DNA from: Clostridia bacterium
GTDB taxonomy: Bacteria; Bacillota; Clostridia; Christensenellales; Pumilibacteraceae
Length of the DNA stretch: 64,000 nt
Assembly (NCBI GenBank): GCA_017500845.1
Contig: JAFVXY010000013.1
Span: forward strand, 52,468 to 116,467
Reading direction: 5' to 3'
The position numbers were made by a program, and so were the translations under genes. Position 1 is the stretch's first letter. Each line of letters opens with the position of its first letter. Of the stretch, positions 29,337 to 60,594 are shown one piece after another. The notes under the pieces are model-generated. The model searched no databases, was not told where the DNA came from, and saw only the letters and a program-made list of their open reading frames with translations.

Positions 29337-31169
29337 TTAGTTTAACTTTAGATAAACCTTGGGCACTACCGCCACCGAGGTGCAATCCACATACATTTTG
29401 GACAGTCCCATCAGCGACGAAAGCACGGGGGCCTCATTGCCGTCACAGCAAGAGCAATCGCGAATCCAACAGCTGCTGATATTTGCGCTACGGTTGTCAC
29501 CCATACCGCCTATGCAACGGAAGTAGTCGCTACCCGCAAACACGGGGTGCATAGTCGTATAGTACTTTTTGTCAAGCGAGCTTTCCTTGTCCATTAAGAA
29601 GACCTTGTCGTCGTCGAAGTCGCCGCCCTCGTAGCACAAATACTTTTCGTCCTCGCCAAACGCATCCTTTATAAACGCGGTATTAAGCCAGAATCTAAGA
29701 GTTGACGCATCCCAATTGTTGTCAAGCCCCTTGCCGTTAAGCTCGCGGCTGTCAAGCCCCACGCTGGAAACAAGGGTAGCCACGTTGCCGCTAAAATTCT
29801 CGACGTCCCAAATTATATCCTCGAAGGCAAAGCAATACACCTTGCCGGGCATATAGTCGTGAATGCGCTGATCCTTGGGCTTTACGTCCGTCTTTTGCAC
29901 CGAATACACGCCGCGGAATTTTACAAAGTACACGCCGCGGTATTTTTTGCCACCTATCGTTTCGTCACGGTACCAAGTATACGCCATGCCATTCTTCATA
30001 AAGAACATGGGCGTCCAGCCATTATTATCACCCATAAACTCCGGCTTAATAAGAGCCTCGAATCGATCGGTTACCACATTGCTATTGACCAGCGATTGCG
30101 GATAGCTGCCAAACGCTATTTGCTTTCTTGACGGAGCCATACGGAACCACGACTTTTTTTGAACCTCAAGCGTTGCCTCGCCCATCTTTTGCGCGGTCTG
30201 CCCCGTGGGCTTTTGCGTAGGCTTCTTTTCCGACACCACTACGCCATTACAGGTCAAAACGAAATCGTTATACGTTTCTTTTTCGTCATACTTATACACA
30301 CGCTCGGCTATGCTGTCGTCAGGAAGCGATACGATAATTTTGCCGCGATACAGCACAAAACCAAGATTTTCGCCTGCAAAGGCACTATTGTCTATGCTCT
30401 TGTAATAAAATCTTGTGTAAATATCGGTAAGCCTTGCGTCAATGCTGTTGTCCGCAACGACGAGCATACTGTTGGAGTGGTCAATTGCATAAAGTATTGC
30501 CGCCTCGTACTCGGTTTTGTCACGGTAGTCATCTATATCGGGCACGAACGCATTTTTTACCACTCTGTCTGGCAGATTATTGCGAATCGTAGATGCTACC
30601 TTAAAGCCCTCGTCGCCCTCGTCTTGAGAATAATCCTCGTAAGCGATAAACACAGAGTAATGGAAGTCCTTGCCCTTTTCGCTTTCGATTTTGTCGTAGG
30701 TTTCCTTAATGCCATCCACGAAGTTTGCGTAATAGCTAATCTTACGCTCGGCTTCAAGATCTCCTCGCTTTGTTATAATTTCCTTAGCGGTGATATATTC
30801 TACGCTTTCGGTAAGATACATCTCGTTGCGGCTATGACAAACAAGGTCGGGAAGCTCGTCTTCATTTTCCTCGCTGAAAATAGCCTGCACGTGAAATTCC
30901 GAAAGTGCCATACCGATATAAGTATCGGCAGATGGAGTTTTTTTGTGATGCTTTGCATCATCGATGGCGCGTCTGAATTGATTGGACGCACGCGCAAATT
31001 CGCCCTGCGCGAGCAATTCGTAACCGCTCGCCGTCCTTGTTCTGCTGCTTTCTTCCACCGCAGTGGGCTCGCCGCAATACTTACAAACGATAAAGCCGCC
31101 GTTTGTCTTAGCCTCTTGAAGCTGTTTTAGCGAAAATGACTCTCCACAAACTGAACAGGTATGTATCAT
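29337..31169 (-). CDS. Zinc ribbon + TPR-like + TIR-like + DUF6273 protein
   Basis: 610 residues, last gene of the island. Residues 1-40 form a zinc ribbon (Cys5, Cys8, Cys29, Cys32). Residues 48-95 look like a TPR hairpin (GYELLAQGEFARASNQFRRAI). Residues 168-285 are TIR-like: YSVFIAYEDY, then TEYEAAILYAIDHSNSMLVVAD. The position where related clostridial TIR proteins have a WVKNEW-type motif with the catalytic Glu here reads TDIYTRF, so NADase activity is doubtful. The C-terminal part (about 350-605) is DUF6273, with IIWDVENFSGNVATLVSS, STLRFWLNTAF and KVFLMDKESS, and it is Cys-rich near SSCWIRDCSCCDG. A GGGAG ribosome binding site precedes the ATG. Confidence 0.82.
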   Translation of the reverse strand: MIHTCSVCGESFSLKQLQEAKTNGGFIVCKYCGEPTAVEESSRTRTASGYELLAQGEFARASNQFRRAIDDAKHHKKTPSADTYIGMALSEFHVQAIFSEENEDELPDLVCHSRNEMYLTESVEYITAKEIITKRGDLEAERKISYYANFVDGIKETYDKIESEKGKDFHYSVFIAYEDYSQDEGDEGFKVASTIRNNLPDRVVKNAFVPDIDDYRDKTEYEAAILYAIDHSNSMLVVADNSIDARLTDIYTRFYYKSIDNSAFAGENLGFVLYRGKIIVSLPDDSIAERVYKYDEKETYNDFVLTCNGVVVSEKKPTQKPTGQTAQKMGEATLEVQKKSWFRMAPSRKQIAFGSYPQSLVNSNVVTDRFEALIKPEFMGDNNGWTPMFFMKNGMAYTWYRDETIGGKKYRGVYFVKFRGVYSVQKTDVKPKDQRIHDYMPGKVYCFAFEDIIWDVENFSGNVATLVSSVGLDSRELNGKGLDNNWDASTLRFWLNTAFIKDAFGEDEKYLCYEGGDFDDDKVFLMDKESSLDKKYYTTMHPVFAGSDYFRCIGGMGDNRSANISSCWIRDCSCCDGNEAPVLSSLMGLSKMYVDCTSVAVVPKVYLKLN

Positions 31170-31199
31170 AATTTTCTCCCTAATGTCTTTTTGGTTGGT

Positions 31200-31231
31200 T
31201 TTGCCGCGCGGTTAAGTTCCGCTGCGGCAAA
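31200..31231 (-). promoter_or_regulatory. Strong hairpin between the LRR and TIR-like genes
   Basis: On the minus strand GCCGC-A-GCGG and CCGC-G-CGGC form a stem of about 10 bp around AACTTAA, extended by TTT/AAA. No T-run follows, so it is more likely an RNA-processing or stability element than a terminator. Confidence 0.5.
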
Positions 31232-31238
31232 GCCTTGT

Positions 31239-34200
31239 TTATTTGTATTCGTCGTATCCGTCAAGCCAATCACAGCCTCTGAACACGCCCTTGCCAAACT
31301 TGGCATCATTGTTTCCCACAACGAACGAAGTGAGAGAGTAGCAATTTTGGAACGCCTTTTTTTGAATCCTTTTAGCGCTGGAGATATGTACGTAAGAAAG
31401 ATTTAAGCATTCCTTAAACGCACGCTTACCGATTTTATTGAGGTCGCCCTGCACGTCAAGCGAAGAAATTCCGCTACCCTTAAATGCACGCGCCTCGATT
31501 TTGGTAACGCCAACGGGAATAGTTACACTCTCAAGATTTTTGCATTCCCTAAACGCGCGGTTAGAAATAGTCTTAAGCGAGCTCGAAAGGCGAAGCGTGT
31601 AAATTCCGCTGTCTGCCGCAACCTGTTTGCCAATTCTTTCTACCGAGTCGGGCATATAAAGCGACTCCAAGCTGTTGCATCTTTTGAATGCCTTTGCTCC
31701 AATCGAACGAAGCGTTTCAGGAAGCTCAATCCAAGTTAAGTTTCCGCAATCCTTAAAGGTGTTGCTTCCGATTTTGGCAACCTGAGTTTGGCTGAGGTCA
31801 ACGCCCTCCAGGGAATAGCATCGCATAAACGCCTTATCGCCAATTCTGCCGAGAGTAGTCGGCAAAATGATGGTATCCATCGCAGTGTAATCGACAAACG
31901 ATTTTCTGCCTATTGAGGTAACGCCCTCGTTAAGCTGAAGACCGTTAAGGCAGTCTTGCGCACCCTTAAAGGTGGTTTTGTTTACCCTCTTCATCGAGGT
32001 GGTAACAATAATCTTTACCTCGTTAAAGCCGAACATGTGTCTATATCCACGATAGCAAAAGCTGCGAGATGCGCCCACGAACGGAGTAACTATACCCTCG
32101 ATGGTGCTGTATCCGCCGGCAAAAGCCTTTTTGCCAATTTTTTGTACCGCATCCGAAAGCTCGATTTCGGTAAGGCTATCGCATCTAAAGAACGCCTTTT
32201 TGCCAATCTTTTCGACGTTTACCGTCCTAACGGACGTGATACTCGTCCTTGCGTAAGCCTTTGCGCCGATTTTGGTCACCGTTTCGGGCAAGTCAAGCTC
32301 GGTTTTGCTATTGCACTGATAGAACGTTCCTGCCGGAATTTCGGTTATTCCCTCGGGGAAGTCTACCCACTGGAGGCTGTTGCAATCGTAAAATATGTTT
32401 TTGCCAAGCTTTTGTATGGGCGCAACCGAGAAGTCCATCGACATAAGATTGTCGCAGTTGCGGAAGGCACCCGAGCCGATTTTGGTAAGCGCCGTTCCAC
32501 CAAGGTCGATTTCGCTAATGTTAAGGTCGCGGAACGCATTGTTGCCGATTTCCTCAAGAGTGGACGGAAGCGAAATGTACATAAGGCTGCCAAAGCCGCG
32601 GAACGCTCCATTACCGATTTTGGTAAGCCCCTCGTTGAGGTAAATGCTCTCTACCGTAGTCGCGCCCTTAAAGGTGTTGCGTTTTGCATTATCGAGTCCG
32701 GTCACCGTAATACTGGAAACACTGTAAGATGTGCCAAACATATAGCTAAAGCCCTCGCCCGACTTATCATTTTTGCCAAGGAACGGAGTAGTGATCTCAA
32801 CAAGCTGCTCGCAATCCTTAAAGGCGTGCTTGCCCACCTCGGTAACCGAGTTGGGTATAGTCAAGGTGATTATGTTGTCGCAATCGTAGAACGCACGCTT
32901 ACCTATCTTTTCGACGTTCTTAAGGTCAATTGAGTCAAGCACAGTGCTTTCAAACGCGCTGTCACCCACCTCCTTTAGCGAGTCGGGGAGGCTTATCGAG
33001 CTAAGCGAGCTACAATCCTTAAATGCATTTGCGGGCAAGCCTTCGATTCCTGATGGCAAAATTACCGAGCTGAGATTGACACACGCCTCAAACGCACCCT
33101 TGCCCATACTCTCAAGCGGAATCTGAGTAAGGTCGATTGCCGTAATTGAGTTGCATCCGCTGAACGCACTGTCGCCTATGCTTTGGAGGCTACTGAACGC
33201 CGTAATGCCGCTTAGGCTTTCGCAACCTGCGAACGCTTTTTTGCCGATATGAGCTACCAAAGCTGCACCGTCAATATTGATTAAGCTACGGCAATCCACA
33301 AAGGCGCTGTCGCCAATAGCCTCAAGCGAAGCGGGCAACGAAACGGCCACAAGGTCATTAAAGCCCTTAAATGCTTTTTTGCCGATTTCGGTAACAGAGC
33401 CGCTAAGCATCAGGCTTTGAATACTCTCGGCCCCCTTAAAAGTCTTTTTGTCTATCTTTGAAATATTATTTACAGTTATGCTTTTTACGCTGTCCGATTT
33501 GCCGAACGCATACCTAAAGCCATCGTTAGAATCTATATTTTCGCCAAGATACTCAGCGGTAATAGACTCAAGCGAGTCGCAACCCTCAAACGCCTTTTTG
33601 CCCACGCTTTCTACCGAAGCGGGAACGGTCAATTCGGTCAAGCCGTCGCAATCTCTAAATGCGCTCTTGCCTATTGTCGAAATGCCCGCAAGGTCTATTG
33701 TCACAAGTCCCGAGCCCTCAAACGCGCTTTCAGATATTTCTTTCATCGATTCGGGCAAGCTTATGCTCATAAGCGCCGAACAACCGTAGAACGTTTTTGC
33801 AGGAATACGCTCCATTGTAGACGGAAGAGTAACACTATCAAGGTTTTCGCAGCCTGCAAAAACGCCCTCGCCGATTTCGCCAAGCGGCGCAACCGTAAGG
33901 TCGATTGCGGTAAGCGAGGCGCAGCCCTCGAATGCACCGTCTCCAACGATATTGAGACCGCGGAAAGCCGAAATGCTATTAAGGTTTTGGCAATCCTTAA
34001 ATGCTTTTTTGCCTATTTGCTCGACCGCCTCAAAGCCGTAAAGACCCGAAAGGTTGTCGCAGTCCTCAAACGCCTTTTCGCCTACCTCGATAAGGCCGCC
34101 TGCGTTTGAGTATACCTCGGTAAGGCCGCCGTTTTTGCTGAATGCTCCGTCTCCGATTTTTGTCACCGTTTGCGACAAGTAAATCGATTGGAACGATTCC

Positions 34201-35471
34201 CCCCTAAAAGCTTTTGCGGCAATACCCACAACCGTTTTGCCGTCTATTTGATCGTCCACCGTTACGGCTTCACCTGAATTAGGCTGAGCATTGATATTGC
34301 TGTCTACAAAGCCTGCGATAACTATGCCGTCGCCCTCGTTGCAATAATAGAAAATATCGTTGTAGCCGTCGTATCTGAAATTATAAAGAGCGGTAAAGCC
34401 GATTACCGCAATCGCAATCACACCAAACACGCTTGCTGTTGCTTTTACCCGTTTTGTAAAATACCTATACGAGTACACCTTTATGCGTCGTTTTTTTGCT
34501 CTGAAAGCAGAATAGACTATAATGCCCACGTTGGCAAGCCACCAAACAAGAAGCAATATCTCATAAAACTGCATTATTTGTGCCTTGATAATGGTGTACC
34601 TATGCCAGAATGCAATAAGACCTGTCGCGGCAAGCGTAAGAAAGCCAAAGATAAACGGATATATTTTTAGGCGAATATCTCTGCGGCGAGCAAGATGCTC
34701 CTTAAATGCGCCGTTAAGCTCGCTGATAATATTGGCAAAGCTACGGCCGGGCAATAGGCTTTTTAGAACATATATGTTGCTTTTGCGAATATCGTTAAGC
34801 TTTTGTATTCCCGAATCAAAAAGAGCATTCACCTCGTCGTTGGTAAAAATTCCGCCAACGGCAACCCCTAAAGGCACCTTATGTTTGTAGTTTTTGATTT
34901 TTTTCCAAGTGGCTTCGAGCATTTTGGACTCTGCCATATCGGTGTCGATTGCCTTTTTTAGAAGGTTGAGTGTGTCCTTCTGATGCGAAAGCCCCATCTC
35001 GCTAAGGTCGATTGCGCTAAGGCTCAGCACGTCCTGCACGCACGCTTCCTTGCCCAGCGACCTATGCAAAATCGATACGTTTTTCTCCCAAACGCCCTTA
35101 GTCACCTCACAACACTTGTTGCCTACAACCTGACTTGCGTCCTCAAGCTTTTTCCACACTGCACTAAGCGGAATCTTGGGCAAAATACCCACCTTGTCGC
35201 CGGAGAGAGTAAGAATCTCGTTGCTACCCTTATAGCGGCATTTTGCGGCGAACTTATATTTCATGTAGCCGTTTAGGACGTTGCCGTTGTCGAACGGCAT
35301 AACGTTACGCGCGCCAAAATAAATATCCTGACTGCGCTTGTCAAAATATTTTTCCTCGGCAAGCGCGCCATCGCCGATTGGCACTTGCTCTTCCGCCTCC
35401 GCCTCGTCGGTTACGATAACCTCGTCCGTTTCGACTATCGGCGTTTCTTGTTTTTTCTTTTTTCTTGCCAT
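31239..35471 (-). CDS. Membrane-anchored giant leucine-rich repeat protein
   Basis: 1410 residues. The N-terminal 270 residues are cytoplasmic by prediction (MARKKKKQE start, acidic then helical; the NALFDSGIQKLNDIR part resembles a helix-hairpin-helix). Three membrane segments follow (about 271-289, 301-322, 343-363), placing the C-terminal thousand residues outside. These are BspA-type LRR_5 repeats (TKIGDGAFSKNGGLTEV, IPAKTFYGCSALMSISLP) in several long cycles, each ending in a YAFGKSDSVKSITV-like unit. There is no signal peptide or LPXTG. An AAAGGGG ribosome binding site lies upstream; 9 nt separate it from the preceding gene. Likely a surface sensor or adhesin that can contact cytoplasmic island partners (inference). 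Confidence 0.88.
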   Translation of the reverse strand: MARKKKKQETPIVETDEVIVTDEAEAEEQVPIGDGALAEEKYFDKRSQDIYFGARNVMPFDNGNVLNGYMKYKFAAKCRYKGSNEILTLSGDKVGILPKIPLSAVWKKLEDASQVVGNKCCEVTKGVWEKNVSILHRSLGKEACVQDVLSLSAIDLSEMGLSHQKDTLNLLKKAIDTDMAESKMLEATWKKIKNYKHKVPLGVAVGGIFTNDEVNALFDSGIQKLNDIRKSNIYVLKSLLPGRSFANIISELNGAFKEHLARRRDIRLKIYPFIFGFLTLAATGLIAFWHRYTIIKAQIMQFYEILLLVWWLANVGIIVYSAFRAKKRRIKVYSYRYFTKRVKATASVFGVIAIAVIGFTALYNFRYDGYNDIFYYCNEGDGIVIAGFVDSNINAQPNSGEAVTVDDQIDGKTVVGIAAKAFRGESFQSIYLSQTVTKIGDGAFSKNGGLTEVYSNAGGLIEVGEKAFEDCDNLSGLYGFEAVEQIGKKAFKDCQNLNSISAFRGLNIVGDGAFEGCASLTAIDLTVAPLGEIGEGVFAGCENLDSVTLPSTMERIPAKTFYGCSALMSISLPESMKEISESAFEGSGLVTIDLAGISTIGKSAFRDCDGLTELTVPASVESVGKKAFEGCDSLESITAEYLGENIDSNDGFRYAFGKSDSVKSITVNNISKIDKKTFKGAESIQSLMLSGSVTEIGKKAFKGFNDLVAVSLPASLEAIGDSAFVDCRSLINIDGAALVAHIGKKAFAGCESLSGITAFSSLQSIGDSAFSGCNSITAIDLTQIPLESMGKGAFEACVNLSSVILPSGIEGLPANAFKDCSSLSSISLPDSLKEVGDSAFESTVLDSIDLKNVEKIGKRAFYDCDNIITLTIPNSVTEVGKHAFKDCEQLVEITTPFLGKNDKSGEGFSYMFGTSYSVSSITVTGLDNAKRNTFKGATTVESIYLNEGLTKIGNGAFRGFGSLMYISLPSTLEEIGNNAFRDLNISEIDLGGTALTKIGSGAFRNCDNLMSMDFSVAPIQKLGKNIFYDCNSLQWVDFPEGITEIPAGTFYQCNSKTELDLPETVTKIGAKAYARTSITSVRTVNVEKIGKKAFFRCDSLTEIELSDAVQKIGKKAFAGGYSTIEGIVTPFVGASRSFCYRGYRHMFGFNEVKIIVTTSMKRVNKTTFKGAQDCLNGLQLNEGVTSIGRKSFVDYTAMDTIILPTTLGRIGDKAFMRCYSLEGVDLSQTQVAKIGSNTFKDCGNLTWIELPETLRSIGAKAFKRCNSLESLYMPDSVERIGKQVAADSGIYTLRLSSSLKTISNRAFRECKNLESVTIPVGVTKIEARAFKGSGISSLDVQGDLNKIGKRAFKECLNLSYVHISSAKRIQKKAFQNCYSLTSFVVGNNDAKFGKGVFRGCDWLDGYDEYK

Positions 35472-35480
35472 AATTCCCCT

Positions 35481-36260
35481 TTATTCGCGTATAATTCTAT
35501 ACGCACTCAGCCTTGAAGAATAGCTGATTTTGTACTTACGAGTTGACGCCTCGTTGCCGTCAATATAATTGAACTCCTCGGTTAGGTAGTAGTCAATAAC
35601 GCCCTCGCTTGCAGTAATCGGCGCAACGTACATTACATTCTCCTCTACCACCGCTATGTTAGCATTCCTTACCTCGATACGCACTCTCTTGCCCTCTCGG
35701 GTCTCCAGCTGAAGCTCGTCACGGTCGAACACAAGCCCAAGCACCGCAGCATTATAAGCGTTGACAATTGCGTAGCAATAACCGTCACGGTGCTTGCATT
35801 CCGAGGCGTAGCTTATATCTACGGTGAACGGTTTTTCTTCTTTAAGAACGGTTCCCTCGTCCATATCCGCAACAAACCTAAGCGGCGCCGCAGTAACCTC
35901 GGCAAAGCCATCTACAAAGCTATTAGCGTCCTCATTGCGCGGAGCAACGTCTATAATCGTGCCGCTGTCGTTTCGACAAAGGCGAATATCCTTGTCCCTG
36001 CCCTTGTCGTCCATGTAGGTGACGTGCTTTACGTTTTCGGCTTCCTTAATAAAGTCAAGAATATCCTGCCTGCCATAAAGCCCCTTTTTAGGAAGTCCCA
36101 CGAACAAAAAGCTGGGCTTGCCGCTTGGCTCGGATATATAAGCTATTATTAGGCCGTGCGGCTGACGCTTGGCTTTTGGGAGTGCGGGGCAAGCACCCAC
36201 GCTTAACAAAACGAGGTCGCTTGCCTTATTCTTTTCAATTTGCTTATACTGCATCTCCAT
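35481..36260 (-). CDS. Island protein of unknown function (259 residues)
   Basis: I do not recognise a family. It is a soluble protein of mixed alpha/beta character, without signal peptide or membrane segment. An N-terminal domain (DLVLLSVGACPALPKAKRQPHGLIIAYIS) is followed by a beta-rich half with TVDISYASECKHRDGYCYAIVNAYN and VRIEVRNANIAVVEENVMYVAP. Placed between the two giant membrane-anchored genes with 9 and 22 nt gaps, it is probably a cytoplasmic partner of those proteins. AAAGGA ribosome binding site. Confidence 0.75.
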   Translation of the reverse strand: MEMQYKQIEKNKASDLVLLSVGACPALPKAKRQPHGLIIAYISEPSGKPSFLFVGLPKKGLYGRQDILDFIKEAENVKHVTYMDDKGRDKDIRLCRNDSGTIIDVAPRNEDANSFVDGFAEVTAAPLRFVADMDEGTVLKEEKPFTVDISYASECKHRDGYCYAIVNAYNAAVLGLVFDRDELQLETREGKRVRIEVRNANIAVVEENVMYVAPITASEGVIDYYLTEEFNYIDGNEASTRKYKISYSSRLSAYRIIRE

Positions 36261-36282
36261 AAATTTGTCCTTTTTTCTTTGC

Positions 36283-43908: not shown

Positions 43909-43931
43909 AATAATTCCTCTGTTCTCAAGAT

Positions 43932-52334: not shown

Positions 52335-52356
52335 AAGCCTTATGTCCCCTTGTTAT

Positions 52357-52372
52357 CTTAATAGTGCGACGT
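52357..52372. other. Small hairpin in the gap before the SNF2 gene
   Basis: GCGACG and CGTCGC pair around four bases in the 98 nt gap between the 283-residue gene and the SNF2 gene. No T-run follows. No promoter of good quality was seen in the gap, so read-through from upstream is assumed. Confidence 0.35.
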
Positions 52373-52432
52373 CCCCGTCGCCGATAATATTAGTCGTTGC
52401 CGTAGCATTCAAATAAAATTTGTACGCCGCTT

Positions 52433-53284
52433 TTAGTCGTAATGAATACACGAAATCTCTGTGCCGTGTCTTCGTTTTGTGTACACGTTTAGTCCGCCGC
52501 CAAGGCAGTCTATGTGCTCCACCACCTCGCCCTCTACGCTGCGGTACTCGCTAACGGAAGAAGGTAATCCAATAGTAAAAGCATAAACGCTTTCGTCCGA
52601 AATCCAAAACACCTTGTGCGCCTCGTTTGCCACCACGTAGCCCTTTACGTGGTGCAAAAAGTCCTTGTCACAGCCGTCGTTAACGCCGATTGCCACGGGC
52701 TGAAGGTCCTTATGGCTAAAATAGTAATAGCGAAGCTGTCCGCCAAGCACCAAGAATACGTGCCTACCTAGCGTAACCAGCGTCGCGCTTAGGTCAAGCA
52801 CCGTGGGAAGCGGCTCCTCACACAAAAGCACAAACTCGCTGGGGTGAGGGCGGTACGAATATACCGCAAGCGTCGTTCCCTTGCCGCCGGGGCGTTTTGC
52901 AACGGCAAACATAAAGGTCTTAACGCCCGAGGTGGTCGGTATCGAGCTTAACGCCCACGCCTTGACCTCGGTGCCGATATTCAGCACATCCTTTTTGCTC
53001 CCTACAGCTACCCTGCCCGACTGAACGCAAAATACTTCGCCGTCCAGCTTTAGCGATGGAAGCTCGCCCTTGCTGCCCTTTGCCTCGGTAAATGTCTTAC
53101 CCGCTGCGTTGCCGCCGTCAAACAGCACGAAACCGCCACGGGCAGTAAGCCATCTAGAAGAATGATACCTAAGCCAATCGGCGTACTCCTTTTTTACGTC
53201 CTCGCCGTATGCAAGCGAGCGAACGTTGGCATTGCAAGAAAAGAAATTCTTTTTTGCTGTTTTCTTTTTGCAAAAGGTTTTCAC
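52433..53284 (-). CDS. Island protein of unknown function (283 residues)
   Basis: Starts with GTG at 53284, preceded by GGGAG at 7 nt. No recognised family. The basic N-terminus (KTFCKKKTAKKNFF) is followed by strand-rich sequence with evenly spaced blade-like segments (EVFCVQSGRVAVGS, TFMFAVAKRPGGKGTTLAVYSY, RHVFLVLGGQLRYYYFS, HKVFWISDESVYAFTIG), which suggests a beta-propeller. It sits between the RuvB-nuclease gene (15 nt upstream) and the SNF2 gene. A scaffold role would fit a propeller, but this is inference. Confidence 0.72.
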   Translation of the reverse strand: MKTFCKKKTAKKNFFSCNANVRSLAYGEDVKKEYADWLRYHSSRWLTARGGFVLFDGGNAAGKTFTEAKGSKGELPSLKLDGEVFCVQSGRVAVGSKKDVLNIGTEVKAWALSSIPTTSGVKTFMFAVAKRPGGKGTTLAVYSYRPHPSEFVLLCEEPLPTVLDLSATLVTLGRHVFLVLGGQLRYYYFSHKDLQPVAIGVNDGCDKDFLHHVKGYVVANEAHKVFWISDESVYAFTIGLPSSVSEYRSVEGEVVEHIDCLGGGLNVYTKRRHGTEISCIHYD

Positions 53285-53299
53285 TGTTAATCTCCCGCC

Positions 53300-55594
53300 T
53301 TAGGTAAGCTGAATCATAAAGCCGTTTCCGCTACGATCCACGTTTTTAAGCCTGCGATTGTTGAGCAAAATCGTATAAACCTCGCATTTGTCCAGCGTTC
53401 CATACATAGCCTCGTATTCGGCAAGCGCCGCAGAGTCACACTGACCGATACCCGTTGCGTTACCCGTTTCTTCTATCTTAGCGTAGATAAACTGCTCGAG
53501 CTGCGTGTTTATGGGCGCATTTCTAAGCATTTCTACGGACACGTACGTTTTTGTACCGTACGGCTGCATAACCTCGGCATAGCCGTAGCCGTGCTGAATG
53601 CAAAACTCTCTTAATCTTTCGTACTTGTCGATGTTGAGGTGATACGAGCACATATCAAAGTTCTTCATCTCTATTACGGCAATACGGTCCTTGTAATCCC
53701 TTACAACAAAGTCGGGGAAGTATCTGCGGTCGCTAAGCTCCTGCGATATGTACGGAATTTCCAGCGTCTGCGCACGCAAATCCTTAGCAAAGCCAACAGT
53801 CGCCATCATGGTAGCAAACCTGCTTTCGAGGAATGAATCGCACTCTATCGTGCGCTTGTAGCTGTCGAAGTCAAGCTCGAGCAAGCAAAAGTGCTTGGGC
53901 GCTTCCACAATCGGCTTTTCTACGTCCGAGAAAAGCTCGTCGAGATTGCCGCCAAAGGTGATTGCGTTTTCGGGATAAACGATAAGCTCCTCTACCTTTT
54001 CGCACTTGATTTCGTCGGGCACCTTCGCCACTATAACGGTGCGCTTGTCGTATTTACTTTGAAGCGTATCGTCATTTTTTTGACCATAGCTGTTATTTTG
54101 ACTGCCGCACTCATCGCCGCTTGCCGTGTTTGTCTCTTCTTTTTTTGCCTCCTGCTCGTCAAGAGCCTTAGGAACAGGCAGTCCAAGCACCTTGTAGGCA
54201 TCGGGCATTGCCACTCTGCCGTCACGGTCGACGCGCACAAGCCCCTTCTTTATAAGATACGCCTCGTACTTTTGCGCTATAACGTTGTTGCTTTCGTTCA
54301 TTGCGCGTGCAAGGTTGTCAAGACCAACGGGGCCGCCGCCGTAGCGGTGAATTATCATCTTAAGCAGCTCGCGGTCGCCGTTTTCCAAGCCGTATTCGTC
54401 TATTCCGTTTTCCTCAAAGAAGTCTATAATTATGTTTTCGGCAATACTTATGTTAAGCTTGCGGATTTCCTCAAGAGTAAGGGGTCCGTCCACCTTGATG
54501 TTGTTTTGCACTATGTGCTTAACAAGCGCCTTGTCGGTAATACGCTTTATCATATTGTTGGCGGTACGCGGATTGTTGCGACAGCGTTTGGATATAAGAA
54601 GCGCGTTTTGATCCGAAATGCTCATGCCAAGCTTGTAGGTGGACTTTGCGATTATGCCGGCAAGCACCTCGTCCGTGTATTCCTCCAGCCTAACCGCTAT
54701 GGTACGGTGAGTGAACGGCTTTGCAAGCTTACCGATTTCGGTGGTTGCACCAATAAGCGTAAAGGGCGGAAGCTGGAACTCAACGGGTCTTGCAAACTTG
54801 CCCTTGCCCTCGATGTACGTGATTCTGCCGTCTTGCATAGCGGAGTACAGCACCGACTCTGCAACGGGCAGAGGAATCGTGTGAATTTCGTCAATAAACA
54901 CTACGTCACGGGGCTTGAGCTTTTTGAAGATTGCCACCATCTCGGGAATGGTTATTTTAGAAACGTTGATTTCGGTAAAGCCTACGCCAAGCTCGTTGGC
55001 AATAATGCGCGAAAAGGTGCTTTTGCCAAGACCGTGCGAGCCGTACAGCATTATGTGCGGCATTGCCGCGTTTTTGAGCTTTGCGGCTGTTATAAGATCC
55101 TTTACTGCCGTAACAGCCTTGGGCTGACCAACGTACTCGGACAGCCATTTGGGCGCAAGCGCATTGCTTCCGCTTACCGTCTTTTTGTGCGACTGTTCAT
55201 TTGCATGCGGAGCAGCAGGAGCGGTAGGTGCGCCGGGCACAGTGGAAGCGGGCGGCACAGTAGGCGTTGTCGGAGCAATAGGCGTTGTCGGAGCTATGGG
55301 CGTGATAGGCGCAGCGGAAGGCGGTGCAATCGGTGCGGTAGGCGCAACGGGAGGCGGAGCTATTGGGGCAGAAGCCTTAAGCTTTTTATCGATGCCCTCA
55401 AGAAGCGCCGTAAGCTGCTTGCACTGATCGAGATACCTTTTTTGTACCGCGCCCGCACTGCTTTTTGCAAGCATAAGCGCTGTTTTTGCCGCACTTTGCA
55501 AATAACTGTACGCATGGGTAAGCTTGCCTGCTGTCATTGCCGCATTGGCAAGCCTAATATATTCATTCAAAAGACTTTCTTCTTTATTACTCAT
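53300..55594 (-). CDS. MIT-like domain + RuvB-like AAA ATPase + PD-(D/E)XK nuclease-like fusion
   Basis: 764 residues in four parts. Residues 5-70 form a helical domain (EYIRLANAAMTAGKLTHAYSYLQ, AAKTALMLAK) resembling the MIT domain and similar to the start of the island's other AAA protein. Residues 75-130 are a Pro/Ala-rich linker. Residues 150 to about 465 are a RuvB-like AAA module: Walker A GSHGLGKST (185-193), Walker B VVFIDEIH, sensor LIGATTEIGKL, arginine-finger-type THRTI and the winged helix RYGGGPVGLDNLARAM. The C-terminal domain has PDFVVRDYKDRIAVIEMK (PD about 629, ExK about 642-644), a PD-(D/E)XK active-site pattern. Genuine RuvB is about 330-350 residues, so this is a specialised fusion. 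Confidence 0.85.
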   Translation of the reverse strand: MSNKEESLLNEYIRLANAAMTAGKLTHAYSYLQSAAKTALMLAKSSAGAVQKRYLDQCKQLTALLEGIDKKLKASAPIAPPPVAPTAPIAPPSAAPITPIAPTTPIAPTTPTVPPASTVPGAPTAPAAPHANEQSHKKTVSGSNALAPKWLSEYVGQPKAVTAVKDLITAAKLKNAAMPHIMLYGSHGLGKSTFSRIIANELGVGFTEINVSKITIPEMVAIFKKLKPRDVVFIDEIHTIPLPVAESVLYSAMQDGRITYIEGKGKFARPVEFQLPPFTLIGATTEIGKLAKPFTHRTIAVRLEEYTDEVLAGIIAKSTYKLGMSISDQNALLISKRCRNNPRTANNMIKRITDKALVKHIVQNNIKVDGPLTLEEIRKLNISIAENIIIDFFEENGIDEYGLENGDRELLKMIIHRYGGGPVGLDNLARAMNESNNVIAQKYEAYLIKKGLVRVDRDGRVAMPDAYKVLGLPVPKALDEQEAKKEETNTASGDECGSQNNSYGQKNDDTLQSKYDKRTVIVAKVPDEIKCEKVEELIVYPENAITFGGNLDELFSDVEKPIVEAPKHFCLLELDFDSYKRTIECDSFLESRFATMMATVGFAKDLRAQTLEIPYISQELSDRRYFPDFVVRDYKDRIAVIEMKNFDMCSYHLNIDKYERLREFCIQHGYGYAEVMQPYGTKTYVSVEMLRNAPINTQLEQFIYAKIEETGNATGIGQCDSAALAEYEAMYGTLDKCEVYTILLNNRRLKNVDRSGNGFMIQLT

Positions 55595-55685
55595 TACTCT
55601 CTCTACCGTTGTTATTTTTTCTGCCGTTTAGACAGGGGCTGTGCGTTATGCACAAAATTCGTTGCCACGTATAGGCAAAAACCTG

Positions 55686-56261
55686 TTATTGACCAAGCTT
55701 GCGCTGAAGCTCTGCTAATTCTGCGTCAATCGAAGAGCTTGCGGCGCTTGCGCCCGTGTTGCCATAAATAAGAGCATTGATTTCGTCGTCGGTCGCCTTA
55801 GCGTTTTCGTCCGCAAAGGAGCCTACGGTATCCTGCGATTCGTCCATCAAATCCTCAAGGCTTTCGGTCTGAGCCTCTACCTTGCCCATAGCCATCTTAA
55901 GGTCGCTGTTGATTTTGCGAACGTCCGTAGTGGTATTGCCCGCGATCTGCTTTGCAATAACGTGGATAGCCTTAAGGAACTCGGTGGTCATTTCGGTCAT
56001 ATCGTTCATCTGCTCGATAATGCGTGCATTAAGAAGCATCTTAAGGGTACGCTTACGCTCGGTGATGGTCATCTGAAGTGCCTTTTTTGCAAGCTCAACC
56101 TGCTCGGGCAAATCTTCCTTAACTGCGATCTGAGCCTGCTGAATGTAAATTTCCTTTTGGGAATCAAGCTTTTTGATTCTCTTTTCGAGCTCCTTCATGG
56201 ACTGTCTTACAGCCATCTTTTTTTCTTGCTTACGCTCTTCCTTACTCTTGAAAATTGCCAT
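55686..56261 (-). CDS. ESCRT-III/Snf7-like helical protein
   Basis: 191 residues, almost all helical. A basic N-terminus (FKSKEERKQEKKMAVRQSMKELEKRIKKLD) leads to long helices (QVELAKKALQMTITERKRTLKML, MNDMTEMTTEFLKAIHVIAKQI), an acidic C-terminal part (MDESQDTVGSFADENAKATDDEIN), and a terminal IDAELAELQRKLGQ. The basic-core/acidic-tail layout and a final leucine-spaced helix like a MIM1 motif are features of ESCRT-III (CHMP) proteins. No primary-sequence match can be proven by eye. AGGAG ribosome binding site. Encoded directly after the MIT-like AAA ATPase (45 nt). Confidence 0.75.
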   Translation of the reverse strand: MAIFKSKEERKQEKKMAVRQSMKELEKRIKKLDSQKEIYIQQAQIAVKEDLPEQVELAKKALQMTITERKRTLKMLLNARIIEQMNDMTEMTTEFLKAIHVIAKQIAGNTTTDVRKINSDLKMAMGKVEAQTESLEDLMDESQDTVGSFADENAKATDDEINALIYGNTGASAASSSIDAELAELQRKLGQ

Positions 56262-56306
56262 TTTTATTTCTCCTAAATTTTATTTGGGTTATGAATTTTA
56301 TTTCGC

Positions 56307-57422
56307 TTACGCAATGTCCTCGGGCAACAGGGTCATAAGTGCGTCCTTGGTTATCGAAGACACGCCCGCAATACGGTTTGCCTGCTTTCTACACGTTTTT
56401 TCGAACAAGTTACGTACGTCACGGGCGTTACCGAAATTTTCGTCACGGGTGTCGTACATCTTTTGCAATCTTGTGCGAAGAATTCTCTCTGCCGGCTCGG
56501 AAAGAACCTTTCCGCCCTTGCGGCAGTTAAGCTTGAAAATAGCCACCATTTCGTCCACGGTGTAGTCGTCGAAGTGAAGCGTGTTGGGGAAACGCGATTT
56601 AAGACCGGGGTTCATCCTAATAAAGTCGTCCATTCTGTTTTCGTAGCCAGCAAGCACGGTTACGAACTCGCCACGCCTATCCTCTACTGCTTTAAGAAGA
56701 ACGCCCACAGCCTCCTTACCGAAGTCGTTTTCGCCACCCTCGGCAAGACGGTAAATCTCGTCGATGAACAGCACGCCGCCCATAGCTTCCTCTACCTTTT
56801 CCTGCGTTTTTATACCGGTTTGACCAACGTAGCCCGCAACGAGGTCCTCACGCTGAACCTCAACCAGCTGACCCTTTTCGATTATGCCAAGCGAGTATAA
56901 AATGTCCGCGATAATACGCGCAACAGTCGTTTTACCTGTACCCGGGCTGCCTGCAAAAATAAGGTGATTGTTTTGGTCGCCCGTGGGAAGCCCAAACTCC
57001 TTGTTCATTTGCTGAACCTTGAGATAGTTAATAAGATCCCTAACCTCGTTCTTTACCGCGCCAAGACCGATAAGCTCGTCGAGCTTAGCCAGCGACTCCT
57101 CTACCGAAAGCTTTGGGAGCGGCTCGGTGTTTTCCTGCTTTTTCTCCTGCGGCTTAGCGGAAGCGCCCGGCTTGTTTGTGCCTGCCGCGGGCTGCTGCTT
57201 GCTTTGAATAAGCTTTATGGCGTCCGTGATGTTTTTTACCTTAATCATATAGCCGTCACGCTCGGCGCTTACCGTAATTTTTGCAAGCTGAATAGCATTC
57301 TCTAGCGCACGCTTAAGGCAATCCAGCGCACCGTCAAGATTATTCTGAGCAATATATCTGTTTGCGCCCTCGTAGCTCGACTTAAAGCGCATTTCCAATA
57401 TGGCTTTATCCTTGTTATCCAT
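56307..57422 (-). CDS. CbbX/SpoVK-type AAA ATPase with MIT-like N-terminal domain
   Basis: 371-residue ATPase. Residues 10-75 form a helical bundle (SSYEGANRYIAQNNLDGALDC, KRALENAIQLAKI) resembling MIT and similar to the RuvB-like island protein. A charged linker (80-105) precedes a CbbX/SpoVK-type AAA module: LIGLGAVKNEVRDL, Walker A GSPGTGKTT (158-166), YVGQTGIKTQEKV pore-side segment, Walker B GVLFIDEIYRL (about 216-225), LAGYENRMDDF and GLKSRFPN arginine finger. MIT + AAA is the layout of Vps4, the ATPase that disassembles ESCRT-III in eukaryotes and archaea, although this AAA module is of another clade. Confidence 0.88.
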   Translation of the reverse strand: MDNKDKAILEMRFKSSYEGANRYIAQNNLDGALDCLKRALENAIQLAKITVSAERDGYMIKVKNITDAIKLIQSKQQPAAGTNKPGASAKPQEKKQENTEPLPKLSVEESLAKLDELIGLGAVKNEVRDLINYLKVQQMNKEFGLPTGDQNNHLIFAGSPGTGKTTVARIIADILYSLGIIEKGQLVEVQREDLVAGYVGQTGIKTQEKVEEAMGGVLFIDEIYRLAEGGENDFGKEAVGVLLKAVEDRRGEFVTVLAGYENRMDDFIRMNPGLKSRFPNTLHFDDYTVDEMVAIFKLNCRKGGKVLSEPAERILRTRLQKMYDTRDENFGNARDVRNLFEKTCRKQANRIAGVSSITKDALMTLLPEDIA

Positions 57423-57433
57423 ACAAACCTCGC

Positions 57434-58087
57434 TTAGCCCAAGCTTTTAAGCAGCTGCTCGGCACTTGCAAGCTCGGGAGCTACGTCCTTTTCGCTTGCG
57501 CCCGAAAAAGCGCTGAGGTTGCCATTCATCATAAACGCATCGATTTCGGCGTCTATCATGGGGTCTGCCGTGCCGCCGTCCGAAACCTCGTCGGGGAGCG
57601 CCATTTCCATCGAGCCAAGGAACTGGTCGAACATCATGCCCTGCTTGTCAAGCTCGCTTTGGGTCTTAGCAAAATTCCTTTGCGTTTCCATCATAACGTT
57701 CTTGTCAAGCGAAAGCTTGCCGAGCGATCCTGCGATTTCCTGCATTGCGCCCAAAAGTCCTGCGGTGTTTTTGGAAAGCGCCTGCATATCCTGCATACAC
57801 TCCATCTGGAAGAGGAACTGCTCTGCCTGAGCCTTTCTCGCCCTCGTTACCTTTATAAACGTAACGCACTGGGTGTAAATCTGACCGTATCCCTTTTGCT
57901 TAGCCGCAGCCGCACGCTGAATAAGGTTTTGCTCGGTCTTATTTATTTCGGCAATAAGCTTCTCTACCTCTTTCTTTTTCATCTTAGCGGTATACTTTGC
58001 CTGAAACTCCTGGTCTCTTTTTGCTTCCTCTTCGGCCCTTGCCTTTTCTTCCTTGGTTTGCTTGTTTTTTCCAAATAACATAATCAT
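57434..58087 (-). CDS. Helical coiled-coil protein, ESCRT-III-like
   Basis: 217 residues (the in-frame ATG at 58081 is an alternative start). The N-terminus is highly charged and helical (KNKQTKEEKARAEEEAKRDQEF), followed by KYTAKMKKKEVEKLIAEINKTEQNL and long amphipathic helices with several Met. The tail is acidic (DPMIDAEIDAFMMNG) and ends SAEQLLKSLG. The plan is the same as in the 191-residue island protein: basic helical core, acidic tail and leucine-spaced terminal helix. It lies 11 nt before the MIT-like AAA gene. Confidence 0.72.
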   Translation of the reverse strand: MIMLFGKNKQTKEEKARAEEEAKRDQEFQAKYTAKMKKKEVEKLIAEINKTEQNLIQRAAAAKQKGYGQIYTQCVTFIKVTRARKAQAEQFLFQMECMQDMQALSKNTAGLLGAMQEIAGSLGKLSLDKNVMMETQRNFAKTQSELDKQGMMFDQFLGSMEMALPDEVSDGGTADPMIDAEIDAFMMNGNLSAFSGASEKDVAPELASAEQLLKSLG

Positions 58088-58121
58088 TGTTTCCTTTTAT
58101 TTGTTTTTGTTTACGGTTTGC

Positions 58122-59048
58122 CTATCTTCTGCCGTTTACCAAGGCATCAAACTCGTCTGCCGCGGAATTGCGCGAGCTAAGACTACCGGTAGAATTTGCA
58201 ATTTGATTTTGCATATCCTGCGCCTTGCTTTCTTGCACCATAGCGTCGAAGCCGTCGTTTGCAGCCGCTGCCGCCGCACCCTGTCTGCGCGATCTTGTGT
58301 CCGCCATAATTTCGTTGTCGGTAAATATCTGCTCGTTCTTTCTTGCGATGATCGCCTCGCTGTCTGCCACCCACGAAGCAAGCTGAGCACCCGTCTTAGG
58401 CGGCTCGGGCATCTTTTGGATAGCCTCCACCTCGTTGAGTAGTCCTATTTGGTCTACAAGGTTGTTATACTGACCCTGTAGGGTAGCAACGGTTGCCTGA
58501 ACGGTCTGAAGCTGGCTTTGCTGAGTCATGTACTCTGCCTTTGCCCTTTGATATTCGTAGCTACCCGGAGCCGCTTCCTTAGCGCGGTCGAGTGCTCTTT
58601 GCATAGCCTCGTTGTGGTGAGCGATCTGCTTGAAGGCATCGCACATCTGAGCAAGCGTATCCGCACGTGCCTCGTCAAAGGCAAGGAAGTTTTTGGAATA
58701 CTTTTCCTTACCGTTAATTCTGGAGTGCATTATAGCGGAGTAAAGCATATTTGCATGAACTGCAATGGACTCGGCAGAGCCCTGCTGACAGTCCGCGGCA
58801 ATCTTGTCAAGCATTTTAAAGATTCTCTCGTCAATCGGCGCTATTTCCTTGCCGTCCATAGCGCGACCTCTTGAATCCATCGGGTACTCCATTTGCTGAA
58901 GCTGCATCATGGCTTGGTTAAGCACCTTGCCTGCGCCGCCAACCTGCATGCTACCGATTTTCATAAGAATACGCTGGATGCTTTCGGACATTAGCTGCGA
59001 ATTTTTTGCAAAATCCTTATTGTTGTATTTATGTGAAAAAAGTCCCAT
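58122..59048 (-). CDS. Helical coiled-coil protein (PspA/ESCRT-III-like), 308 residues
   Basis: Second gene of the island. It begins MGLFSHKYNNKDFAKN and is mostly helical, with a long coiled coil around AEYMTQQSQLQTVQATVATLQGQ, Ala-rich stretches and a C-terminal end DEFDALVNGRR. No cysteine, signal or membrane segment. The short hydrophobic N-terminus (MGLFS) could touch membrane, as in PspA/Vipp1 proteins. It lies 19 nt after the SPFH gene. In B. subtilis an SPFH protein (YdjI) works with PspA, which supports the grouping. Assignment to ESCRT-III is by architecture only. Confidence 0.7.
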   Translation of the reverse strand: MGLFSHKYNNKDFAKNSQLMSESIQRILMKIGSMQVGGAGKVLNQAMMQLQQMEYPMDSRGRAMDGKEIAPIDERIFKMLDKIAADCQQGSAESIAVHANMLYSAIMHSRINGKEKYSKNFLAFDEARADTLAQMCDAFKQIAHHNEAMQRALDRAKEAAPGSYEYQRAKAEYMTQQSQLQTVQATVATLQGQYNNLVDQIGLLNEVEAIQKMPEPPKTGAQLASWVADSEAIIARKNEQIFTDNEIMADTRSRRQGAAAAAANDGFDAMVQESKAQDMQNQIANSTGSLSSRNSAADEFDALVNGRR

Positions 59049-59067
59049 TGTTTTTTATCCTCTCTTT

Positions 59068-59991
59068 TTATTTGTTAAGCTTTTCGCCGCACTTATTGCA
59101 GTAATTACCACCATGGTTACGCTCGCCGCAACGCGGACAGATGATTACGGGCTTGTCGTCTCTGTCTGCGCGGTCGTGCTTACCGGCATGAGCCTCGACG
59201 TCCTTAGGCAAAGCATTTGTTTCTCTGATGTTCTCCACAAAGGCCTGCTCTTTATCTACGCCGATATCGTCGCGCTTGCCCTTGTTTTGCTCGGATCCGA
59301 TAGCGTTATTGATTTTTGCGTCCTTAAGGCGATTTCTTTTAAGCTCGTGATCGGGAGTATAAGCAAATTTGTTGATTACTACGCTTTCTACGCCAATGCC
59401 CTTGCTTTCAAGCCTATTGTTGATTTCTTCCTTAATCTTTTCCACAAACCTTTCGGCATTTGCCTTGCAGTCGTTGATGGTCGACCTCATAAGCACGGGA
59501 GCAAGAATCTTTTTGAAGATGCCCGTGCTTTCCTGACGCAAGAACTCACGAATATCGTCTCGCGTTATTGCGCCTCTTTCGCCCACCGCCATAGCAGTAA
59601 TAAAGCTGTAGAAGTTGCTTATCGTGTAATAGTAATTACCCGTTGCAATTACGCTTGCCTCTACGTTGAAGTCGGGGTCGATGGTGGTCATAGCATTGGA
59701 GCCGGCAAGCGCCCATTCCGCATTGTACTGGCTGGATTGGTCGATTGCATAAATCTCAAACTTTTCGTACGGCTTGTCGCCGCCAAAAAACTTCTTGTTC
59801 TTTCCGGGATTGAAAAGCCCGAAAACGGTGGACGACTGTCTCATTTGAACCTTGGTTTGATTGCCTATTTTTACAAGCACCGTAACCTTTCCGTCCGTTT
59901 CGATAACAGTGTTGGGAGTAAGCTCCGCCACCTTAACGCGCCAGCAAGCAACCTCCTCGGCTCCTCTGTTCTTGATTTCAATAACGCTCAT
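59068..59991 (-). CDS. SPFH/Band 7 protein with C-terminal zinc ribbons (YdjI-like)
   Basis: 307 residues, first gene of the island. It has an SPFH domain: strands around TVLVKIGNQTKVQMRQSSTVFG and FEIYAIDQSSQY, then the helical part (DDIREFLRQESTGIFKKIL, AERFVEKIKEEINNRLESKGIGVESVVI). It ends in paired zinc-ribbon knuckles CPRCGERNHGGNYCNKCGEKL. No membrane segment, as in the YdjI/virion-core-like branch. SPFH proteins build scaffolds on membranes; YdjI of B. subtilis is tied to the PspA stress system. It has an AGAGG ribosome binding site and the only strong promoter of the island in front. Confidence 0.9.
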   Translation of the reverse strand: MSVIEIKNRGAEEVACWRVKVAELTPNTVIETDGKVTVLVKIGNQTKVQMRQSSTVFGLFNPGKNKKFFGGDKPYEKFEIYAIDQSSQYNAEWALAGSNAMTTIDPDFNVEASVIATGNYYYTISNFYSFITAMAVGERGAITRDDIREFLRQESTGIFKKILAPVLMRSTINDCKANAERFVEKIKEEINNRLESKGIGVESVVINKFAYTPDHELKRNRLKDAKINNAIGSEQNKGKRDDIGVDKEQAFVENIRETNALPKDVEAHAGKHDRADRDDKPVIICPRCGERNHGGNYCNKCGEKLNK

Positions 59992-60091
59992 ACTTTACCT
60001 CTCTATTTTACAGCGAATTTCGCCAAATTTGCATGTTTTTGGGCGAGCAAAAAACGCAACGCCAAAAAAAGCGTATAAATATACACGTATG

Positions 60092-60120
60092 AGTATAGCA
60101 TATATTTCGACTTTTGTCTA
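60092..60120 (-). promoter_or_regulatory. Promoter of the 30.7 kb island
   Basis: -35 TAGACA (60115-60120), 17 nt, -10 TATACT (60092-60097) on the minus strand, giving a leader of about 95 nt before the SPFH gene. I found no second good promoter in the short gaps downstream, but internal promoters inside genes cannot be excluded. Confidence 0.7.
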
Positions 60121-60194
60121 CGGAAAATCAACATTTTCTTGATGTTTATTGATGTAAAAATCAAGAAAAAAAAGCTTTTTTCTAATAAATGTTA

Positions 60195-60223
60195 TTGTAA
60201 TTTCCAACACAATATGATATACT
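60195..60223 (+). promoter_or_regulatory. Promoter of the divergent zinc-ribbon gene
   Basis: -35 TTGTAA (60195-60200), 17 nt, -10 TATACT (60218-60223). It is back to back with the island promoter, about 75 nt between the -35 boxes. Confidence 0.65.
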
Positions 60224-60252
60224 GCTTGTATACCAACGACGGAGGACGAGCT

Positions 60253-60594
60253 ATGAGCATTTTTAAACGAAAGGTAGACTACACCTCGCTTACCTGCCCC
60301 GAGTGCGGCGAGCACCTCGACTACAACAAAGAGGCGGGAACGGCAAGGTGCAAATATTGCAACACCGAGATTATTATCGACGCTCCGTCTGCCCGCAAAT
60401 CCAACATGCTCGAAACGGTTTTTGACTTTGTTGAACGTCAGCAGGATCGCTACGAGCAGAATGCCGAAAAGCGCCGCCTTGCCGAGGAGCATGAAGCCGC
60501 GCGTCGCCGAGCCGCCGCAAAAAAGCGCAATATTATTCTTGGCGTTATCGTAACCGTTGCACTTATCGCATACGCTTTGATTATCCTACTATAG
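60253..60594 (+). CDS. Tail-anchored zinc-ribbon membrane protein
   Basis: 113 residues from the ATG at 60253 (GGAGG 7 nt upstream). A zinc ribbon (CPECGEHLDYNKEAGTARCKYC, four Cys at about residues 15-37) is followed by a charged coiled coil (RQQDRYEQNAEKRRLAEEHEAARRRAAAKK) and one C-terminal membrane helix (NIILGVIVTVALIAYALIILL), so the ribbon faces the cytoplasm. It is divergent from the SPFH gene and could be part of the same membrane system (inference). Strong terminator follows. Confidence 0.8.
   Translation: MSIFKRKVDYTSLTCPECGEHLDYNKEAGTARCKYCNTEIIIDAPSARKSNMLETVFDFVERQQDRYEQNAEKRRLAEEHEAARRRAAAKKRNIILGVIVTVALIAYALIILL

Follow-up and report, generated by a model that had tools for sequence, protein, structure and literature searches.

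Homologues of many components of the endosomal sorting complexes required for transport (ESCRT) are reported to be identifiable in archaea and not in bacteria, and some archaeal ESCRT loci, those of the Meth_adaptin type, contain SPFH proteins (PMC10936438). Whether any ATPase serves PspA or Vipp1 in the way that Vps4 serves ESCRT-III has been called unclear (PMC8281802). Some bacterial members of the PspA/Snf7 group lie beside AAA ATPases, and Band-7 proteins join PspA operons (PMC11237479). MIT-interacting motif (MIM) elements are treated in PMC9477494, and conflict systems built on MoxR-vWA pairs were described by Kaur et al. (PMC7159879). The subject of this study is a fourteen-gene operon, g2 to g15, in a window of 64,000 nucleotides from a Clostridia bacterium of the family Pumilibacteraceae (contig JAFVXY010000013.1, positions 52,468 to 116,467); all unlabelled coordinates below are positions in this window.

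The operon can be read as an ESCRT-III-like membrane platform that would bring in motors acting on DNA as well as a nuclease, most likely against foreign DNA crossing the cell envelope, and we give this reading a probability of about 0.5. An earlier, sequence-only reading had interpreted the region as an ESCRT-like membrane island, which the present analysis partly supports.

ESCRT-III-like proteins and MIT-like motors

The genes at the core of the proposed platform are the following.

59068..59991, minus strand: g2, SPFH protein (Band_7_1, E 1.9e-10, 41.1 bits with a cut-off of 24) with a zinc-ribbon-like C-terminal end
57434..58087, minus strand: g4, ESCRT-III-like protein by family profile, a diverged paralogue
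56307..57422, minus strand: g5, MIT-like N-terminus, AAA (3.8e-16) and AAA_lid_6 of the CbxX/CbbX type (6.5e-21)
55686..56261, minus strand: g6, ESCRT-III-like protein of the A1/A4 family, with the tail SIDAELAELQRKL
53300..55594, minus strand: g7, MIT-like N-terminus, RuvB-type AAA (RuvB_N 7.5e-40, RuvB_C 9.2e-17) and PD-(D/E)xK (TnsA-like) nuclease

Three small helical proteins had been named among the products of the ESCRT-like island. An ESCRT-III-like character is supported for g4 and g6, which by profile comparison are members of one family (g4 lineage to profile A5: hhalign 98.3%, E 1.7e-14), but not for g3. No Pfam family is hit by more members than Snf7, with 12 of 37 (best 2.8e-8), and it is again the most frequent in a second, partly overlapping set (15 of 74, best 3.3e-4), while a control from the same operons, the 200-aa helical protein B200, gave no Snf7 match in 16 sequences. 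When 297 genomes of the order were searched with Snf7, there were nine matches: four in the ESCRT-III-like family, three in variant loci (G025, G092 and G214, the last with its own gene masked by an opposite-strand open reading frame, or ORF) and two unrelated by neighbourhood (G271 and G141). The curated cut-off was passed by three, all at loci of the family. Among 14 control genomes, Sulfolobus alone matched, below the cut-off. Profile A4, made from 35 of 39 search hits together with g4 and g6 (A3 and A5 were hand-picked), finds the CHMP2A structure 7zcg in the PDB in a colinear alignment with an E of 0.0028, and hhalign to that segment gives 56% and an E of 1e-4. A PspA_IM30 search of the 297 genomes gave 14 matches, none of them at places of the ESCRT-III-like family. 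As candidates for ESCRT-III relatives, g3, S110 and B200 were rejected, with hhalign values of 0.1%, 0.1% and 5.8%, respectively.

ESCRT-III proteins have a basic N-terminal core and an acidic C-terminal region. Of 94 family members, 93 are more basic in their N half than in their C half, and the difference is at least 8 in 18 of the 19 representatives (below 60% identity); the halves carry charges of +8 and -11 in g4 and of +5 and -8 in g6. A MIM1-like tail is present in 69 of the 94 members, compared to a mean of 2.6 in shuffled tails and to 17 of 442 other ORFs of the same loci. Among the 19 representatives, 8 fit the strict pattern and 15 the relaxed one. Fusion proteins in three related loci (L034, L035 and L072) carry the ESCRT-III-like domain ahead of a RuvB-type AAA; the L034 fusion also has the nuclease, and the L035 fusion has a nuclease-like end by eye.

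The two AAA ATPases had been compared to Vps4, with its MIT and AAA domains. The part of this comparison that is supported is the N-terminus, which through the family profile is MIT-like in both proteins. The two N-termini are related (hhalign 95.7%) and match the MIT-like family at 94% (g5) and 97% (g7), and Pfam MIT is found in 1 of 28 AAA N-termini (1.1e-6) and in 5 of the 65, out of 75 MIT-AAA N-termini, that make up profile A8. PDB hits of the family profile include archaeal Vps4-type and chitin-synthase structures, which we take to be MIT domains; a single MIT-like domain used as query gave no PDB hit. The motor module of g5, however, is nearest in the PDB to CbbX (1e-53) and EccA1 (8e-46), and together with the AAA_lid_6 this rules out g5 as a Vps4 orthologue. 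The modules also differ among relatives. For example, L073 and L083 have AAA_lid_3 with a borderline Vps4_C, and the L083 protein is nearest to p97/Cdc48 in the best 60 of 267 PDB rows, a score that is raised because p97/Cdc48 has two AAA domains. A third kind is the MIT-like AAA at L085:4438-5538, which matches the PADLOC model for the defence ATPase IetA (2.8e-44) and TRIP13 (3e-19). Since the modules vary in this way (CbxX-type, AAA_lid_3, IetA-like), the AAAs of the operon family may be functional counterparts of Vps4 rather than Vps4 itself.

The RuvB-type nuclease protein predicted from the sequence is confirmed in g7. Its TnsA-like match (2.4e-5) lies slightly below the cut-off, and the nuclease motif is intact in all four proteins compared, g7 included, with LExRFA, PDF and EMK kept.

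A number of results weigh against the ESCRT-III and MIT assignments. Taken alone, the window's g4 and g6 have no Snf7 match and the N-termini of g5 and g7 no MIT match, and a PDB search with profile A9 yielded no chain at E <=1. A designed coiled coil ranks above CHMP2A in the A4 search of the PDB, and TPR structures score above MIT in one PDB search with the MIT-like family. A charge step of at least 8 is also seen in 153 of the 442 other ORFs. The tail of g6 is MIM1-like under the relaxed pattern only, g4 has no such tail by the patterns used, and the MIM1-like pattern was defined post hoc on sequences already seen. Among the AAA N-termini, other families are commoner than MIT (TPR_2 in 6 of 28, DUF1771 in 11 of 65). 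Finally, an MIT scan of the 297 genomes gave four matches, none above the cut-off: one in the loci of the ESCRT-III-like family and three outside them, one of which is a TPR protein.

A rival explanation takes the helical proteins to be plain coiled coils and the N-termini of the AAAs to be common TPR-like hairpins, with a likeness to ESCRT-III and MIT that is compositional and an island that is an unrelated conflict system. The silence of the window proteins when taken alone, the TPR excess among the 28 N-termini, the three outlying MIT matches and the A9 result all favour this explanation. It is nevertheless improbable in view of the lead of Snf7 in both member sets with an empty helical control, the restriction of above-cut-off Snf7 matches to loci of the family, the conserved tail and the adjoining MIT-AAA and SPFH genes. 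At the level of the family, the support from sequence for the ESCRT-III-like and MIT-like assignments is fair to good; for the window proteins alone it is weak.

Fourteen genes in one conserved operon

The remaining genes and the signals at both ends of the operon are listed below.

60120..60092, minus strand: promoter-like site before g2, 10 of 12 matches
58122..59048, minus strand: g3, helical protein of 308 aa, outside the ESCRT-III-like family (hhalign to A5 0.1%)
52433..53284, minus strand: g8, no Pfam family above cut-off
48342..52334, minus strand: g9, SNF2-type helicase with a large insert (SNF2-rel_dom 6.3e-11)
45716..48352, minus strand: g10, partner of the helicase g9, with an 11-nt overlap
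43932..45635, minus strand: g11, several CxxC (zinc-ribbon-like) pairs by eye, no Pfam match
36283..43908, minus strand: g12, giant protein with MBG repeats (MBG_2 4e-11) and five membrane segments predicted by simple hydropathy
35481..36260, minus strand: g13, with a counterpart at the same position in genome G204
31239..35471, minus strand: g14, giant protein with LRR_5 repeats (2.1e-214) and three membrane segments predicted by simple hydropathy
29337..31169, minus strand: g15, zinc-ribbon, TPR-like and TIR-like protein with a DUF6273-like C-terminus
29283..29318 (about), minus strand: intrinsic terminator after g15, with an 8-bp stem, a 9-nt loop and a T-run, by eye

The fourteen ORFs run on the minus strand from 59991 down to 29337 with intergenic gaps of -11 to 98 nt, much as first described, and they are real genes that form one conserved unit. 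The SNF2 helicase with a coupled partner, the zinc-ribbon protein and the two giant membrane-anchored repeat proteins of the sequence-only reading can be recognised in g9 and g10, in g11 and in g12 and g14. The decisive point is the gene order. A lack of synteny in relatives had been named as the outcome that would count against the island, and the opposite was found: in G204, which belongs to another family of the same order, the g2-g15 set is kept in the same order and on the same strand at 20-58% identity, and the operon is thus not a chance grouping. Identities are 34% for g2, 42% for g5, 46% for g6, 58% for the RuvB part of g7, 24% for g8, 45-48% for g9, 36% for g11, 32% for g13, 29% for g14 and 28% for g15 over its full length; g10 has 30% in the N-terminal part and 20% beyond it, and g12 has 29% over about 2,000 aa. 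There are two g4-like genes (27%), and g3 has a counterpart by position only, a 300-aa protein without a BLAST match. The gaps in G204 are at most 56 nt in the gene pairs seen whole. For ten proteins encoded beside the operon in the window (cysS, mazG, dus, dnaN and others), roughly 3 + 6.5 kb of G204 flank contain no counterpart; the sole exception is LRR-to-LRR matches, which lie inside the operon.

A closer relative keeps the genes as well. In G021, of the same genus, g2-g11 are kept to the end of the contig at about 80 to 99.5% identity (96% for g2, 98% for g3, 84% for g8 and 80% for g10; g11 is partial). Of the 74 family genomes searched, only the window's own and G021 (90%) have full-length g7, while G030 matches it in two pieces, the AAA and the nuclease, at 44-45% and without the MIT-like end. 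A g9 query at 1e-40 in the 297 genomes of the order has four matches: itself, G204 in full and two partial ones. Together with the order seen in G204, this means that the exact form of the operon is rare and that its genes stay together.

The ESCRT-III-like family is more widely spread. Its profile A1 is found in 29 of the 297 genomes and in 17 of 125 genera, whereas profile A4, run on 398 genomes sampled across the phylum, found the window's own genome alone (0 of 397 others). In a collection of 84,980 species, one scan detected 96 relatives, and 80 of them entered the analysis. By their titles, these are metagenome-assembled genomes, mostly of uncultured Clostridia, with some Christensenella sp., Candidatus Coproplasma and Caccovivens, one Bacilli and a few unassigned, and the sample names point to animal guts. 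By simple gene picking, 74 of the 80 loci have an ESCRT-III-like gene, 75 an MIT-AAA, 66 an SPFH, 65 the 200-aa helical protein and 55 the 110-aa protein. These counts are lower bounds because the longest-ORF rule drops real genes that lie under opposite-strand ORFs (e.g., g2 in L033). Loci L072-L101 supplied sequences for the profiles, and their counts are therefore not independent; several of L104-L183 are contigs repeated under their public name, and some of the 80 loci repeat genomes used for profile building.

The earlier identification of g2 as an SPFH scaffold agrees with its Band_7_1 match, and it is presumed to be a membrane scaffold. This brings in the main rival, an envelope-stress or membrane-repair system and counterpart of PspA-YdjGHI, in which the SPFH protein and the polymer would reseal the membrane and the DNA genes would serve repair or regulation. 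The zinc-ribbon-like end of g2 fits such a role, and in B. subtilis, the zinc-finger SPFH protein YdjI is needed for the membrane recruitment of PspA (PMC8581546). Since PspA_IM30 is nearly absent from the order (above cut-off in just 2 of 297 genomes), an ESCRT-III-like substitute for PspA is plausible. However, a repair system would not be expected to contain a nuclease, an SNF2 motor, giant repeat proteins and TIR-type partners, and a patchy presence in 29 of 297 genomes is unlike a housekeeping function. We consider repair unlikely, though less so than the other rivals.

The genome that holds the window measures 1.28 Mb in 22 contigs and is 75% complete. A MazG/Dus/DnaN block flanks the operon on one side and cysS on the other. 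The base composition of the region is not distinct from its surroundings, with no sign of recent acquisition by this measure, and tRNA and Rfam scans of the window found a tRNA-Thr only. The terminator proposed earlier can be read by eye and is missing from the output of the terminator scanner because the scanner takes loops of 3-8 nt and the loop here has 9. The promoter had been called strong: the site exists, but it is not above chance, since 3 such sites were observed with 2.4 expected, and a stronger one is found elsewhere. That site, at 61225-61197 on the minus strand, has 11 of 12 matches. More LRR_5 proteins are encoded outside the operon at 18696-22382 and 63361-63966.

TIR-type partners and a proposed working

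The last gene of the operon, g15, has BLAST matches to a cluster of 59 zinc-ribbon/TPR/TIR-type proteins in related loci. This type of protein is a recurrent partner: it lies at most four genes downstream in 54 of the 74 loci with an ESCRT-III-like gene, most often as the second gene downstream (42 of 59). An alignment, A7, was made of 58 of the 59 cluster members (L115, a membrane/LRR protein by eye, was left out), g15 and its G204 homologue. Of these 60 proteins, 27 match TIR_2 and 12 match TIR; g15 matches neither, and its TIR-like part is visible in the family alignment only. In the column that we take to be the catalytic Glu position of the TIR NADase, Glu is present in 26 of 60; g15 has Ile there and its G204 homologue has Leu. 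Judged by this alignment, g15 is a diverged relative of the TIR-type cluster without the usual catalytic glutamate. Of its earlier description as a TIR-like/DUF6273 protein, the recurrence of the TIR type in related loci is what stands; the DUF6273 match is weak (E 0.02, below cut-off).

Other effector-like genes are found near the relatives. A trypsin-like protease cluster occurs in 14 loci (its member L112, the same contig as L080, was scanned as Trypsin_2), and L088 has another trypsin neighbour. BrxL, the Lon-like protein of BREX, directly follows the MIT-AAA gene at L077:11901-13343, and a BrxL-type cluster is present in three loci, L149, L160 and L171, the last being the same contig as L077. 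An LRR_5 protein is also among the neighbours. By eye, the variant loci L038, L040 and L041 combine small helical proteins, an MIT-like AAA, a trypsin-type protease and a RuvB-like AAA, and they adjoin a tyrosine integrase, with a NusG/LoaP-like gene as well in L040. The N-terminus of their trypsin-type protease matches the MIT-like family at 94.6%. Across the variant loci, the N-termini of RuvB-like proteins do not (13%) and the helical proteins give no match to A5 (1-3%), yet one of the latter, in G025, matches Snf7 directly. Integrase-like ORFs were seen in 6 of 119 loci.

Three further proteins of related loci deserve a record. At L091:12390-15713, close downstream of the ESCRT-III-like and MIT-AAA genes, is a TIR, NB-ARC and APAF1_C-like protein, and at L084:3702-7592 a TPR/TIR protein ends in a domain like the C-terminal one of ribosomal L7/L12. 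A reverse transcriptase at L035:301-1365 lies 114 nt before the ESCRT-III-like/RuvB fusion gene; its LPIGNQTSQ motif is presumably typical of diversity-generating retroelements. No reverse transcriptase is encoded in the window's own genome, as far as it is complete (75%), and a retroelement driving g15 was accordingly not found.

A single operon that combines DNA motors with a nuclease and a scission-type polymer might also suggest a membrane-attached machine for DNA export, import or vesicles, with the RuvB and SNF2 motors driving DNA and the polymer driving scission. Pfam scans of the window found no relaxase, coupling protein or secretion channel (for g5, among the matches listed), and the related loci bring TIR-type proteins, trypsin-like proteases and BrxL instead. 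This explanation is the least probable of those considered.

In the platform reading, g2 would mark a membrane site at which g4 and g6 would polymerise. Their acidic C-terminal tails would bind the MIT-like domains of g5 and g7. The AAA motor of g5 would then remodel the polymer, while g7 would bring a RuvB-type motor with its PD-(D/E)xK nuclease. DNA would be handled by the SNF2 helicase g9 with g10 and g11, the membrane-anchored g12 and g14 would sense the outside, and g15 would relay or scaffold. Polymerisation, tail-to-MIT binding, the membrane site, sensing and defence are what we infer from the anatomy of the operon. The likeliest target would be incoming foreign DNA, from a phage or plasmid, in view of the DNA-acting motors, the immune-type partners found in relatives and the patchy distribution. 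To the points already weighed against the platform should be added that g15 and 33 other aligned TIR-type proteins lack the Glu and that, among viral contigs, 147 pattern matches included none confirmed as an ESCRT-III-like relative.

A broader claim is possible and more tentative: that gut-type Clostridia have a true bacterial Snf7-type branch of ESCRT-III with MIT-AAA motors and employ it as an immune platform, a membrane polymer to which a RuvB-driven nuclease and effectors of the TIR type would be recruited, or even fused, at the point of entry of foreign DNA. If true, this would be a new bacterial way of acting on DNA at the membrane. We know of no other case in which ESCRT would deliver DNA-destroying enzymes to the membrane, as would be suggested by the fusion of polymer domain and DNA motor, joined in one relative by a nuclease.

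Comparison with described systems

Known defence systems share parts with the operon. PADLOC models were run on five of the fourteen proteins, g7, g9, g10, g11 and g15. The best model for g9 was DrmD (1.6e-27, partial); g7 matched DolB (1.9e-4) and g10 Csn2 (0.0034), and there was no match for g11 or g15. The likeness of g9 to DrmD of DISARM, BrxHI of BREX and DpdE of Dpd is that of an SNF2-type core, with the helicase motifs alone aligning, and the companion genes of these systems were not seen in the five proteins scanned. In the case of IetAS, it is the AAA of the relative L085 that matches IetA, and both IetAS and the L085-type system presumably pair an AAA with other effectors. The systems of Kaur et al. 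(PMC7159879) similarly combine AAA ATPases with trypsin-like and other effectors. They differ in being MoxR-vWA pairs, whereas Pfam scans of the window found no vWA (for g5, among the matches listed) and a weak AAA_3 (0.13) in g7.

A bacterial operon of SPFH, ESCRT-III and MIT-AAA genes with TIR or nuclease genes is not described in the titles and abstract starts listed by searches of open-licence literature. The archaeal ESCRT/Cdv loci (PMC10936438) have a Snf7-type protein beside an MIT-bearing AAA, to which the Snf7-like and MIT-like proteins of the operon family would correspond, and the Meth_adaptin type has an SPFH protein with a coiled coil and a zinc ribbon, which may be compared to g2. 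Unlike them, the operon family has a bacterial host and an AAA that is CbbX-like (g5) or Cdc48-like (L083) rather than Vps4, and it comes with a nuclease, an SNF2 protein, TIR-type proteins and giant surface proteins. The pspA-ydjGHI operon of B. subtilis (PMC8581546) likewise holds a zinc-finger SPFH protein and a protein of the ESCRT-III superfamily. The window operon differs from it in being Snf7-like and not PspA-like and in its MIT-AAA motors and DNA-acting genes. Also comparable are the bacterial neighbourhoods of PMC11237479, where some PspA/Snf7 proteins occur with AAA ATPases and Band-7 proteins with PspA. Those systems involve transferred Vps4-like ATPases and a snf7 displaced by an unrelated gene, and the passages of that paper used here describe no version with TIR, RuvB-nuclease or SNF2 genes. 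Set beside PspA and Vipp1, the pairing of a bacterial Snf7-like protein with an MIT-like AAA makes the question of their ATPase one that can be tested.

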